The notes under the pieces were generated by a model. That model was given only the letters and a program-made list of their open reading frames with translations. It was not told where the DNA came from and did not search any database. Position numbers and translations under genes: made by a program. From an uncultured Sphingomonadaceae bacterium (GTDB lineage Bacteria; Pseudomonadota; Alphaproteobacteria; Sphingomonadales; Sphingomonadaceae): DNA of 64,000 nucleotides. Within the stretch, counting starts at the first letter, position 1; every line of letters starts with the position of its first letter. Shown piece by piece: positions 3,972 through 51,811 of the stretch. The stretch is taken from positions 124,001-188,000 of the forward strand of contig CANLUL010000003.1 in the NCBI GenBank assembly GCA_947494305.1, read 5' to 3'.

Positions 3972-6872
3972 ATGACTAAAGCTCCAGACTATAAAGACAC
4001 GGTTTTCCTGCCGAAAACCGATTTCCCCATGAAGGCCGGCCTTGCGAACAAGGAACCGGGCATCTTGGAGCGCTGGCAGAATATTGATCTTTACGAAAAA
4101 TTGCGCGCGGCGCGTGACGGGCGGGAGAAGTTCATTTTCCACGATGGCCCGCCCTATGCCAATGGCAATATCCATATTGGTCATGCGCTGAACAAGACTC
4201 TGAAAGACATTACTGTCCGTTCGCAGAACCTGCTGGGCAAGGACGCGCCGTTTGTGCCTGGTTGGGACTGCCACGGCCTGCCGATCGAGTGGAAGATCGA
4301 GGAACAATATCGCAAGAAAAAGCGCAACAAGGACGAGGTTCCGGCCAGCGAGTTCCGCAAGGAATGCCGCGAATATGCGGACAAATGGGTGAATGTGCAG
4401 CGCGAGGAGTTCAAGCGGCTTGGCGTTTTGGCGCAGTGGGATAAGCCTTATCTGACGATGGATTATGCCGCCGAAGCGGCGATTGTCACCGAATTGCTGA
4501 AATTTGCGGAAGCGGGACAACTGTATCGCGGCGCGAAACCGGTGATGTGGTCGCCGGTGGAGAAAACCGCGTTGGCCGAGGCCGAGGTGGAATATGAAGA
4601 TATTGTCTCGACACAGATTGATGTGGCGTTTGAGATTGTAGATAGCCCAATGCGGGAATTAGTTGGCGCTAACGCAATAATCTGGACAACAACACCTTGG
4701 ACGATTCCAGTCAATCAAGGTCTCTCTTTCGGATCTGATATTATGTATCAAGTATTTCGAGTTGCAGACGGTCGGCGGTTCGTTGTTGCTGAAGATCTTC
4801 GAGACGAATTCTGTGCCCGTGCGGGATTGGAATATGACCCTGCAATTCAAGATGAAGTTGACGACGTATTCTTCAAAGGGGAGATGTTCGGACTAACTGA
4901 TGACCCTGCAGTTGGTGGGCGAACAATCGCCAAACACCCGATGGCGGACAAATTCCCGGACAGCGATTTTTACACCAAACCCCGCCCCTTCCTCGACGGC
5001 TCGCATTTCGTCACCACCGAAGCAGGCACGGGCCTCGTCCATATGGCACCCGATCATGGCGAGGATGATTTTGACCTGTGCAAGGCCAATGGCATCAACC
5101 CCGTTTTTGCTGTCGATGCGGGCGGGCAATATCGCGAGGATTGGGCCTGGCTGCCGCTGACCGGCAGTGTGATCAACAAGAAATTTGTTGGCAGCGAAGG
5201 CCCGATCTGTTCGGACCTGCGCGAAGCCGGTAGCTTGCTCTCGGCCAGCGATGATTTCCAGCATAGCTATCCACATAGCTGGCGCTCGAAAGCGAAGATT
5301 ATCTATCGCTGCACGCCGCAATGGTTTGTGCCGATGGACACTGACCTCACGCATTTGCCCGCCAAAACCCCGCAAGAAAAAGGCTGGGAAAGCGAAGGCG
5401 GTGCGGTTGATCTGTCGGATGAGACACTTTGCGCCTCACCGAGCTTGCGAGAAGTCGCGCTCGATGAAATCCGCAACAAAGTGCGTTTCGTTCCCGAGCG
5501 CGGTCGTCGCCGGCTCGAATCGATGGTCGAAGGCCGCCCTGACTGGGTGCTTTCCCGTCAACGCGCATGGGGTGTGCCGATCGCACTTTTTGTTGATCGT
5601 AAGAGTGGTGAGTATCTCAACGATCCGGCGGTTAACGAACGCATCATTGCGGCGTTTAAAGAATCCGGGGCGGATGCCTGGTTCAACGCCAATCATCAGG
5701 ATTTCCTCGGCGATAAATACGCGCTCGATGACTATGAAGTGATCACCGATATTCTCGACGTCTGGTTCGACAGTGGCTGTACCCATGCATTCGTGCTCGA
5801 AAGCGGAAAATGGCCCGATCATCAGACGCCTGCCGATCTCTATCTGGAAGGCAGCGATCAACATCGCGGCTGGTTCCAAAGCAGTCTTTTGGAAAGCTGC
5901 GGCACCCGGGGGCATGCACCCTATAAAGCTGTCCTCACCCACGGGATGACGCTGGATAAAGCCGGCAAAAAAATGTCGAAGTCGCTGGGTAATACGCTTG
6001 ATCCGCAAAAAGTCATCAACGTCAATGGCGCAGACATTTTGCGTCTGTGGGCGGCGAGTGTCGATTTCACCGAGGACCACCGGATTGGTGATGAGATCCT
6101 GAAAGGGGTCACCGACAATTATCGCAAGCTGCGCAACACGTTCCGCTACATGTTGGGTGGGCTTTCCGATTTCACCGATGATGAACGGGTTGCTGTGGCC
6201 GATATGCCTGAGCTGGAGCGCTATATCCTGCACCGCCTTGCCGAGGTGGATGCCGAACTCAAACAGCATGTGAATGACTTTGCTTTCGGCCCCTATATGC
6301 GCACGCTATCCGCGTTCGCGCAGGAAGATCTGAGCGCCTTCTTCTTCGATATTCGCAAAGATTGCCTCTATTGCGATGCGCCGGATGATCCGAAGCGCAT
6401 GGCGTATCGGACCGTGATGGACATTCTATTCCACGCACTCACGCGCTATATCGCCCCGGTGCTCGTCTTTACCTCTGAAGAAATTTGGCAGAGCCGTTTC
6501 CCGGATGAGAATGATTCTATCCATTTGAAAGTCTGGCCAGAAGTTGATCTGCGTTGGGGCGATGATGCGCTGGCTGCGAAATGGACAACCATCCGCGAAG
6601 CGCGAACCAGCGTGACGGAGGCGATCGAACCGTTGCGCCGTGAAAAAACAATCCGCTCCAGTCTGGAAGCCGAAGTCAGCTTTCCGATGGCTGACCTACC
6701 GGTTGATGCTGATGAGTTTGCCGAATTGACCATTGTTGCAAAAGTGAGCAATGGCTCCGAAATCAATGTGACCAAAACGGATAACCACAAATGCGGACGT
6801 TGCTGGCGCTTGCTTCCCGAAGTCGAGGAAGACGGCGCTTTGTGCGGACGCTGTGAGAAGGTGTTAGCTTGA
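3972..6872 (+). CDS. ileS: isoleucyl-tRNA synthetase
   Basis: IleRS charges tRNA-Ile. The 966-residue protein has the class I HIGH motif at 68-71, the WTTTPWTIP editing-domain signature near 237, KMSKS at 667-671, and a C-terminal zinc knuckle (CGRCW ... CGRCE) near 935-961. It is the normal length for the bacterial zinc-containing form. lspA follows with a one-base overlap, a common arrangement. One internal segment (about 4637-4930) uses very different codons from the rest of the gene and is listed separately. Confidence 0.97.
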   Translation: MTKAPDYKDTVFLPKTDFPMKAGLANKEPGILERWQNIDLYEKLRAARDGREKFIFHDGPPYANGNIHIGHALNKTLKDITVRSQNLLGKDAPFVPGWDCHGLPIEWKIEEQYRKKKRNKDEVPASEFRKECREYADKWVNVQREEFKRLGVLAQWDKPYLTMDYAAEAAIVTELLKFAEAGQLYRGAKPVMWSPVEKTALAEAEVEYEDIVSTQIDVAFEIVDSPMRELVGANAIIWTTTPWTIPVNQGLSFGSDIMYQVFRVADGRRFVVAEDLRDEFCARAGLEYDPAIQDEVDDVFFKGEMFGLTDDPAVGGRTIAKHPMADKFPDSDFYTKPRPFLDGSHFVTTEAGTGLVHMAPDHGEDDFDLCKANGINPVFAVDAGGQYREDWAWLPLTGSVINKKFVGSEGPICSDLREAGSLLSASDDFQHSYPHSWRSKAKIIYRCTPQWFVPMDTDLTHLPAKTPQEKGWESEGGAVDLSDETLCASPSLREVALDEIRNKVRFVPERGRRRLESMVEGRPDWVLSRQRAWGVPIALFVDRKSGEYLNDPAVNERIIAAFKESGADAWFNANHQDFLGDKYALDDYEVITDILDVWFDSGCTHAFVLESGKWPDHQTPADLYLEGSDQHRGWFQSSLLESCGTRGHAPYKAVLTHGMTLDKAGKKMSKSLGNTLDPQKVINVNGADILRLWAASVDFTEDHRIGDEILKGVTDNYRKLRNTFRYMLGGLSDFTDDERVAVADMPELERYILHRLAEVDAELKQHVNDFAFGPYMRTLSAFAQEDLSAFFFDIRKDCLYCDAPDDPKRMAYRTVMDILFHALTRYIAPVLVFTSEEIWQSRFPDENDSIHLKVWPEVDLRWGDDALAAKWTTIREARTSVTEAIEPLRREKTIRSSLEAEVSFPMADLPVDADEFAELTIVAKVSNGSEINVTKTDNHKCGRCWRLLPEVEEDGALCGRCEKVLA
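4637..4930 (+). other. atypical-codon segment inside ileS editing domain
   Basis: Across roughly residues 222-320 of IleRS the codons change abruptly. Codons such as ATA, CTA, CGA, GGA, ACA, GCA and CCT become frequent, where the flanks prefer ACC, GCG, CTG, GGC and CGC. The reading frame and the editing signature are kept, and the GC-rich usage resumes near CACCCGATGGCGGACAAA. The pattern fits homologous replacement by DNA from a more AT-rich donor, giving a mosaic gene. The limits were judged by eye. Confidence 0.6.
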
Positions 6873-50782: not shown

Positions 50783-51811
50783 TCAGGCGTCTTGGCGATA
50801 ATGTGCAGTAGAGACATTGCGCAGCATTTCTGCCGCGCGTTCGGGTAGCAAATCGCGCTGTGCTTCCGCCATCATTTCATAGCCGACCATGAATTTGCGA
50901 ACCGAGGCAGAGCGCAGCAGCGGCGGGTAAAAATGCGCATGCAATTGCCAATGCCCGGATTCTTTCTGTCCAAAGGGCGCGCCATGCCAGCCCATCGAAT
51001 AGGGGAAGCTGCACCGAAACAGATTGTCATATTTTACGGTCAGAGCGCCCAATATCTCGGCCAGCGCTTGCTGCTGATCGCTATCTAGATCGGGCAAGCG
51101 TGAAACGGCAAAGCGCGGCAACAGGAGCGTTTCAAATGGCCAGCTCGCCCACCACGGGACGACGGCTACCCATTGATCATTTTGGGCAACCATCCGGTCA
51201 CCCGCCTCAATTTCCGCTTCAGCAACAGCAAGCAGCATCGAGCGATTATTTTTCTGTGCATAGGCCAACTGGGTTTGATCTTCGTTTTTCACAATGTCCG
51301 GCAGATAGTCATTGGCCCAAATCTGTCCATGGGGATGCGGATTCGAACAACCCATCATCGCACCCTTATTTTCGAAAATCTGAACATTGGGGTATTGTTG
51401 ACCCAGTTTCTCGGATTCCTGACACCAGGTTTCAATTACCGCAAGACGTCCCTCATAACTTAGCTCGGCCAGCGATTTTCCATGATCGGGAGAGAAACAG
51501 ACAACATGGCATTCGCCATTGGCCGCTTCACTTTGAAACAAATCGGCTGTCTTCCCCGTAATATCTGCGGATGTTGGCTTCAGAGCCGGAAAATCATTGG
51601 GGAACACATAGACGCCATCATAGTCTGGATTGAAATCGCCCGTTGCTCTTTTGTTGCCGGGGCAAAGATAACAGTCGGGGTCATGCGCGGGCGGCGATGG
51701 CTCGGGTTCCCCTTCTTCTCCCTGCCATGGCCGAGACAATCTGTGCGGTGACAATAAGATCCATTTATCCGCCAACGGATCATAGCGCCGATGCGGCTGA
51801 TCCATTGTCAT
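50783..51811 (-). CDS. galT: galactose-1-phosphate uridylyltransferase
   Basis: GalT exchanges UMP between UDP-glucose and galactose 1-phosphate. The 342-residue protein has the N-terminal RRYDPLADKWILLSPHR, the metal and structural motif CYLCPGN, the active-site GCSNPHPHGQIWAND with the nucleophilic histidine, and WHLHAHFYPPLLRS near the end. Its start overlaps the symporter stop by 4 bases. Confidence 0.96.
   Translation of the reverse strand: MTMDQPHRRYDPLADKWILLSPHRLSRPWQGEEGEPEPSPPAHDPDCYLCPGNKRATGDFNPDYDGVYVFPNDFPALKPTSADITGKTADLFQSEAANGECHVVCFSPDHGKSLAELSYEGRLAVIETWCQESEKLGQQYPNVQIFENKGAMMGCSNPHPHGQIWANDYLPDIVKNEDQTQLAYAQKNNRSMLLAVAEAEIEAGDRMVAQNDQWVAVVPWWASWPFETLLLPRFAVSRLPDLDSDQQQALAEILGALTVKYDNLFRCSFPYSMGWHGAPFGQKESGHWQLHAHFYPPLLRSASVRKFMVGYEMMAEAQRDLLPERAAEMLRNVSTAHYRQDA

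Follow-up and report, generated by a model that had tools for sequence, protein, structure and literature searches.

Short imported tracts amid native sequence, as in the penA-type mosaics and the mosaic alleles of Campylobacter, are known from housekeeping genes of recombining bacteria, and hypervariable specificity modules are familiar from the target-recognition domains of HsdS and from the centre of flagellin. Aminoacyl-tRNA synthetases are usually treated as conserved housekeeping enzymes and drug targets. In isoleucyl-tRNA synthetase (IleRS) the CP1 domain hosts the post-transfer editing site, and in an alignment of 325 species the conserved parts of this domain are reported to be free of relevant changes (PMC4861432). 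The present analysis concerns ileS, the gene of IleRS, in a 64-kb stretch of contig CANLUL010000003.1 from an uncultured Sphingomonadaceae bacterium; this whole stretch is called the window, W denotes its ileS/IleRS sequence, and G and L codes stand for genomes and loci, respectively. Within the editing domain of W lies a patch with a low G+C content at third codon positions (GC3). This patch is probably the version carried by this genome of a hypervariable CP1 module, which would change hands by recombination and owe its continued diversity to selection.

A hypervariable segment in the editing domain

The genus set comprised 32 searched genomes, the window's own included. A usable ileS was available for 26 of the 31 relatives, the others being split, partial or not fetched (L029-L031, with a split or partial ileS, and genomes G012 and G014 are left out of the genus counts; L022, which is partial, is absent from the Mantel test). 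Both the membership of the genus and the wider Sphingomonadales set are our own grouping of loci. The segment between WTTTPWTIPVNQ and AKHPMAD, which holds the hypervariable segment HVR1, was divergent in all 26 relatives compared, mostly in length too, and in each of them its GC3 was below that of the flanks. Across the genus, HVR1 ranges from 42 to 102 residues, with a GC3 of 0.45 against 0.72 in the flanks. In an alignment of 26 genus sequences read in 20-residue windows, mean pairwise identity was 0.80-1.0 over most of IleRS; across W residues 261-300 it dropped to 0.28 and 0.13, the value for residues 301-320 being undefined in a gappy alignment. Lower values were also obtained at residues 461-500, the site of a second variable segment, HVR2 (0.28 and 0.62), and in four windows near the C-terminus (0.52-0.68).

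Comparison of close pairs points in the same direction. Among 75 sequences, 19 pairs had flanks (HVR2 included) at least 95% identical, and their HVR1s were never more than 48% identical. With HVR2 excluded, 163 pairs among 99 Sphingomonadales sequences had a flank identity of at least 0.93; HVR1 identity was below 0.6 in 155 of these, between 0.6 and 0.7 in none, and at least 0.7 in 8. At a cut of 0.6, the 99 sequences fall into 82 HVR1 types, and the 27 assigned to the genus into 24. In close pairs with different versions, DNA identity at the segment centre was 27-51%, the flanking windows being mostly 78-100% identical. Between most closely related species HVR1 is thus unrelated in sequence, and its anchors are strongly conserved. 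The features of the gene, all on the forward strand (+), are as follows.

3972..6872 (+): ileS, isoleucine--tRNA ligase, 966 amino acids (NCBIfam TIGR00392; Pfam tRNA-synt_1, Anticodon_1)
4590..4925 (+): maximum-scoring low-GC3 tract, with departure from the genus codon pattern seen from about 4638 (segment scoring, codon comparison)
4683..4718 (+): left anchor WTTTPWTIPVNQ, conserved threonine-rich editing motif, with unusual codons in W (alignment, codon comparison)
4743..4919 (+): HVR1, residues 258-316, modelled within the CP1 editing domain as a beta-hairpin, a helix, a strand and a loop (genus alignment, pair comparisons, domain model)
4929..4949 (+): right anchor AKHPMAD, at which W is genus-like again (genus alignment)
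5064..5069 (+): conserved aspartates of HGEDDF, editing domain (invariant alignment columns)
5340..5444 (+): HVR2, residues 457-491, an insertion relative to Staphylococcus aureus IleRS; in the genus, HVR2 distances track those of the flanks to some extent (genus alignment, distances)

The gene is a single open frame of 966 codons, and its protein scores 781 bits against TIGR00392, above the curated cut-off of 621, which places it among the isoleucine--tRNA ligases. Over codons 207-318 (4590-4925) GC3 is about 0.36, against about 0.65 before the drop; the 30-codon windows starting at 4602-4842 have values of 0.30-0.43, and the remainder of ileS 0.47-0.83. The tract scores 22.6, which was reached by none of 2000 within-gene shuffles (top shuffle 20.7). 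With its lowest 100-codon window at 0.36, ileS is the second-lowest gene against a background of 1320 such windows from 48 greedily chosen open reading frames (ORFs) of the 64 kb (mean 0.562, SD 0.063). The lowest of the ORFs measured, at 50893-51558, has a GC3 of 0.35 in 100 codons.

The initial annotation had described a rare-codon patch at 4637-4930 in the editing region of ileS, with frame and conserved residues intact, and was accurate in these respects: W departs from the genus pattern, codon by codon, at about 4638, the sliding GC3 values bear out the patch, and both TTTPWT and the aspartates of HGEDDF are kept in the one frame. Residues T239-T241 and D365-D366 are invariant in 34 aligned IleRS sequences. 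We take the threonine-rich motif and the HGEDDF aspartates to be residues acting in IleRS editing, the aspartates being catalytic. As these are unchanged, they give no hint of the altered sensitivity to antibiotics or misactivated amino acids that the initial annotation considered possible. The AT-rich donor proposed for the patch is not upheld. GC3 of the segment was lower than that of the flanks in 98 of 99 distinct measurable Sphingomonadales (119 loci given; L052 is the exception), with a mean difference of 0.22; in other alphaproteobacteria it was lower in 36 of 51 measurable loci (76 given), with a mean difference of 0.04. Therefore, since low GC3 is a group-wide property of the segment, an AT-rich donor is not required, and low GC3 alone is no sign of a donor.

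Signs of exchange and constraint, with controls

Across the 26 genus sequences, the distances of the N- and C-terminal flanks were correlated (Mantel r 0.69, 0 of 1000 permutations), as were those of the flanks and HVR2 (r 0.48, 0 of 1000), and no correlation was seen between the flanks and HVR1 (r -0.004, p 0.49). L005 and L013 are well-supported sisters (100/99) with HVR1s 33-38% identical, and the HVR1 of L005 is 75-79% identical to the versions of L009, L022 and L025, all of which lie in the other main clade. When L005, L009, L022 and L025, a clade picked after inspection of the data, were forced together on the flank tree, the topology was rejected by the approximately unbiased (AU) test (p-AU 7.7e-108). 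A near-identical version is common to L012 and L021, for which synonymous changes number 1 in 33 sites of HVR1 and 33 in 172 of the flanks. Nine loci, between them bearing six genus codes, share one type (single linkage, 0.6); L043 has flanks 98.5% identical to those of L037, a member of this type, and carries another version, with 38% identity in HVR1.

By the Mantel and AU tests, the variable part has a history unlike that of its flanks, as a module exchanged by recombination would have. The mosaic gene suggested by the initial annotation is in this way retained in part: the patch differs in history from the remaining gene, but it is not an isolated AT-rich-donor patch, as all 26 genus relatives are divergent and lower in GC3 at this place. 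A codon pattern common to sister strains, together with one tree for both parts, had been named as what would speak against a mosaic; sister species do share the low-GC3 pattern, and the single tree fails.

HVR1 also bears marks of constraint. The ratio of nonsynonymous to synonymous divergence (dN/dS) was measurable in 17 of 18 pairs with similar versions, and lay at 0.05-0.22 in 16 and at 0.36, from one change of each kind, in the other. These values are biased low, because similarity of the protein governed the choice of the pairs and dS in HVR1 approaches saturation in several of them. Even so, an unconstrained loop would not be expected to keep mostly 75-90% of its amino acids while its synonymous sites are nearly saturated. 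In seven pairs with different versions, flank dS was 0.22-0.85 and HVR1 dN 0.61-1.03. For the fold, a model of the CP1 domain of W was used (mean predicted local distance difference test score, pLDDT, 84.5; 67 in the block holding the last HVR1 loop), the whole-protein model being too poor (mean pLDDT 60.7). HVR1 forms a hairpin, helices and a strand in it. The best structure match was IleRS 8c9f (Z 20.6, root-mean-square deviation 2.2, 181 aligned), and the match to 1ue0_A (Z 18.4, deviation 2.8, 160 aligned) is that of an IleRS CP1 editing domain. HVR1 is thus predicted, in this genome's model, to fold as usual editing-domain elements.

Three other alphaproteobacterial families served as controls (f41, f37 and f42, with 24, 16 and 7 sequences, respectively); a control genus with three genomes was set aside as too small. 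Their HVR1-equivalent is 48-51 residues long (48 in 24 of 24 in f41), and GC3 of segment versus flanks is 0.56 and 0.59 in f41, 0.83 and 0.86 in f37, and 0.88 and 0.88 in f42. Rank correlations of segment and flank identity were 0.88 in f42, 0.64 in f41 and 0.32 in f37. At a flank identity of at least 0.95, mean segment identity was 0.88 in f41 (25 pairs), 0.78 in f37 (5) and 0.62 in f42 (2); the corresponding HVR1 means were 0.33 for 101 pairs of the genus and 0.41 for 7 pairs of other Sphingomonadaceae. Within the genus, HVR1 identity is constant at 0.31-0.33 whatever the flank identity.

Other genes were compared as well. Between G025 and G028, ileS, recognised from position and sequence, showed the largest local fall in identity of the 139 genes tested in 200 kb (from a median of 0.98 to a minimum of 0.20), and it was again first of 175 genes in 400 kb between G020 and G006 (0.98 to 0.12). 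The runners-up (0.78 to 0.10 and 0.93 to 0.23) appear to be ORFs that were read in a wrong frame or badly aligned. As both stretches were chosen around ileS, these rankings are not a genome-wide census. The gene valS, intended as a control, has a short loop near residue 450 in 18 of 28 genus sequences (L145-L174) and a long insertion there in 10, pairs being either 88-93% or 19-39% identical, a type-like pattern similar to that of HVR1. Near residue 515, some valS genes of the genus have in-frame inserts of repeat-like sequence as well. The frames taken as leuS had mostly 851-864 codons, a few being partial.

Proposed mechanism and rival readings

In the explanation that is favoured here, a module of about 40-100 residues between conserved anchors has been replaced repeatedly among sphingomonads, as the comparisons show within their stated limits, probably by homologous recombination through these anchors with DNA of other sphingomonads. 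Modules drawn from such a mixed pool could account for the unadapted codons. The diversity may then be kept, which is the less certain step, by diversifying or frequency-dependent selection; such selection is suggested by a local divergence above that of all other tested genes and by the restriction, as tested, to sphingomonads. Because the editing motifs are intact, editing chemistry is not expected to be the trait that varies. The simplest reading is an exposed surface that is recognised by something else, with neutral exchange as its main rival, and the simplest selective agent would be an antagonist (a phage protein, a toxin or an inhibitor) or a co-varying partner that recognises the HVR1 surface. 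Replacement from species to species beside a near-constant enzyme suggests some pressure for continual change. It is conceivable, and advanced only tentatively, that HVR1 acts as an allele-like recognition surface in an arms race, in which docking phage proteins, rival toxins or inhibitors select swapped modules. On this reading, the similar-or-unrelated loop of ValRS, a second class I synthetase (10 of 28), would suggest that attack on synthetases may be widespread in the group.

In W, the imported tract would be longer than usual, with the TTTPWT block included, and its source would lie outside the sampled genus or in an unsampled lineage. The block around TTTPWT has a mean DNA identity of 68% to the genus, against 84% within it, and the relatives are without such a departure; a 23-residue spacing occurs in the genus in W only (1 of 28), and in 54 of 74 other sequences of the order. 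Taken together, these two features support a source beyond the genus as sampled. Over 293 bases upstream of the tract, the best DNA matches of W are about 90% identical; over 300 bases downstream of it, they are 80-82% identical.

Two other origins were considered and rejected. Over window positions 4611-4757, the half of the tract that can be aligned, W differs from the genus consensus at 34 sites, with 16 changes from G to A and 2 from C to T, and at the fourfold sites of the segment, genus-wide, G falls from 0.43 to 0.15 and C from 0.45 to 0.32. Strand-specific G-to-A hypermutation does not fit, as the segment loses both G and C across the genus and the protein itself is replaced. As for a retroelement, the patch was its own sole match when searched against its genome at E <= 0.001, so that no template repeat of the diversity-generating kind was found, and the RVT_1 (reverse transcriptase) profile had no match in the same genome.

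A plasmid with an ileS deserves mention in its own right. The Sphingopyxis indica plasmid pMC4 (L345, NZ_CP076395.1), of 404 kb and typed conjugative, carries the whole gene; its ribF-ileS-lspA block resembles a chromosomal one and has IS6100 and trb genes nearby. A plasmid of this type is a possible vehicle for the movement of ileS segments.

Several points weigh against the favoured explanation. We know of no antagonist or partner of this IleRS segment. In f37, segment identity goes down to 0.40 at flank identities of 0.90-0.95, though length is near-constant, and these low pairs together with the weak correlation indicate that the segment is faster than its flanks in that control too. Most of the 82 types among 99 sequences are without a twin, so exchange is directly visible for few versions, and very fast change in place could likewise yield many singletons. 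The comparison covers one genome per species, and the choice of the similar pairs and of the AU-tested clade has to be borne in mind. As regards the source of the W tract, the best match in 397 family genomes had 62% amino-acid identity, conserved block included, and the closest match to HVR1 alone was at 0.46 among the 99 Sphingomonadales sequences; in 385 class genomes, the best listed match outside the family, G243 (a 0.6-Mb genome), reached an unconvincing 39%, and the tract had no match when phage records and viral contigs were searched. With best matches of 62% for the whole stretch and 0.46 for HVR1, no donor is named.

Neutral exchange would have a segment that is free to vary move by ordinary recombination via conserved flanks, with neither an antagonist nor selection for difference. 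Recombinant versions exist, no antagonist is known, HVR1 itself is without known editing motifs, and poor codon adaptation is compatible with weak selection; all of this would fit. However, similar versions retain their protein sequence at near-saturated synonymous sites, with the selection bias already stated, local divergence of ileS exceeds that of each of the 138 and 174 other genes tested, and the pattern is not seen in the three other families, which makes neutral exchange rather unlikely, if still a serious contender. One horizontal transfer of AT-rich donor DNA, into ileS of this strain alone, would be in keeping with the low GC3 over 4590-4925, with the spacing that W alone has among 28 genus sequences, and with the 68% versus 84% identity of the conserved block. 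It is nevertheless improbable, being refuted as a one-off event by the divergent, lower-GC3 segment that each of the 26 genus relatives has of its own, and no AT-rich donor was found in the 397 family and 385 class genomes. There is very little to recommend the idea that an unconstrained loop has drifted fast by vertical descent, with no exchange. While the many singleton versions and a frame kept through length changes are what it would produce, HVR1 is uncorrelated with its flanks, versions are common to different clades, HVR1 dN is 0.61-1.03 at a flank dS of 0.22-0.85, and similar pairs are conserved.

The slightest chance is given to a programmed cluster of rare codons that slows translation for domain folding: a lower GC3 does recur at the segment in 98 of 99 distinct Sphingomonadales, yet it coincides with replacement of the protein, and in f41, f37 and f42 the differences in the same domain are 0.03, 0.03 and 0. 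Finally, variation could be driven by small palindromic repeats that insert in frame and then decay, comparable to the Rickettsia palindromic elements. Peptides in or just after HVR1 of L025, L026, L033 and L249, as well as in the HVR2s of several relatives, resemble translated sphingomonad repeats, a likeness seen by eye. In W, however, neither HVR1 nor HVR2 contains an inverted repeat of at least 12 bases, both are single copy in the genome, and it is whole modules that differ, not inserts alone. As the driver of variation, such repeats are thus highly improbable; the case is weak for HVR1 and plausible for part of HVR2. In the single-contig genome G003, ileS (L121) falls into two overlapping frames at HVR2, a place with repeat-like sequence, and this is either a real break or an assembly error. 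In-frame palindromic insertions are known in Rickettsia genes (PMC10969869), and by analogy such insertions may be a cause of some HVR2s and extra inserts in the relatives.

Meaning and comparison with known systems

A proofreading-domain segment that is replaced in this manner points to an unrecognised pressure on the translation enzymes of common environmental bacteria, and matched enzymes differing in their HVR1 module alone would be a handle for finding the source of that pressure. Among the matches listed for literature titles and abstract openings, in which subscription journals are little covered, there was no hypervariable IleRS segment and no sphingomonad counterpart. The nearest described system is the bacterial CP1 post-transfer editing domain itself, as in Priestia megaterium IleRS1 (8c9f), with which W shares enzyme, fold and editing motifs. 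The conserved CP1 regions reported in PMC4861432 agree with the intact anchors of W. What sets the genus of W apart is length, as the HVR1-equivalent is near-constant (48-51 residues) in the CP1 domains of the three control families, versus 42-102 in the genus of W.

Less close systems share single traits with this locus. Diversity-generating retroelements likewise produce localised hypervariation, and this genome differs in having neither a template copy nor a reverse transcriptase match. Rickettsia palindromic elements are likewise small in-frame additions to housekeeping proteins (PMC10969869), unlike HVR1 of W, which has no palindrome or extra copy. The penA-type mosaics also consist of short imports with native flanks; sphingomonad ileS, however, differs at one fixed place in nearly every species, and no drug is known as the driver of its variation. 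HsdS and flagellin modules, in turn, likewise combine a conserved frame with an exchangeable, type-like part, whereas HVR1 is without a known recognition role and sits in an essential enzyme of translation.

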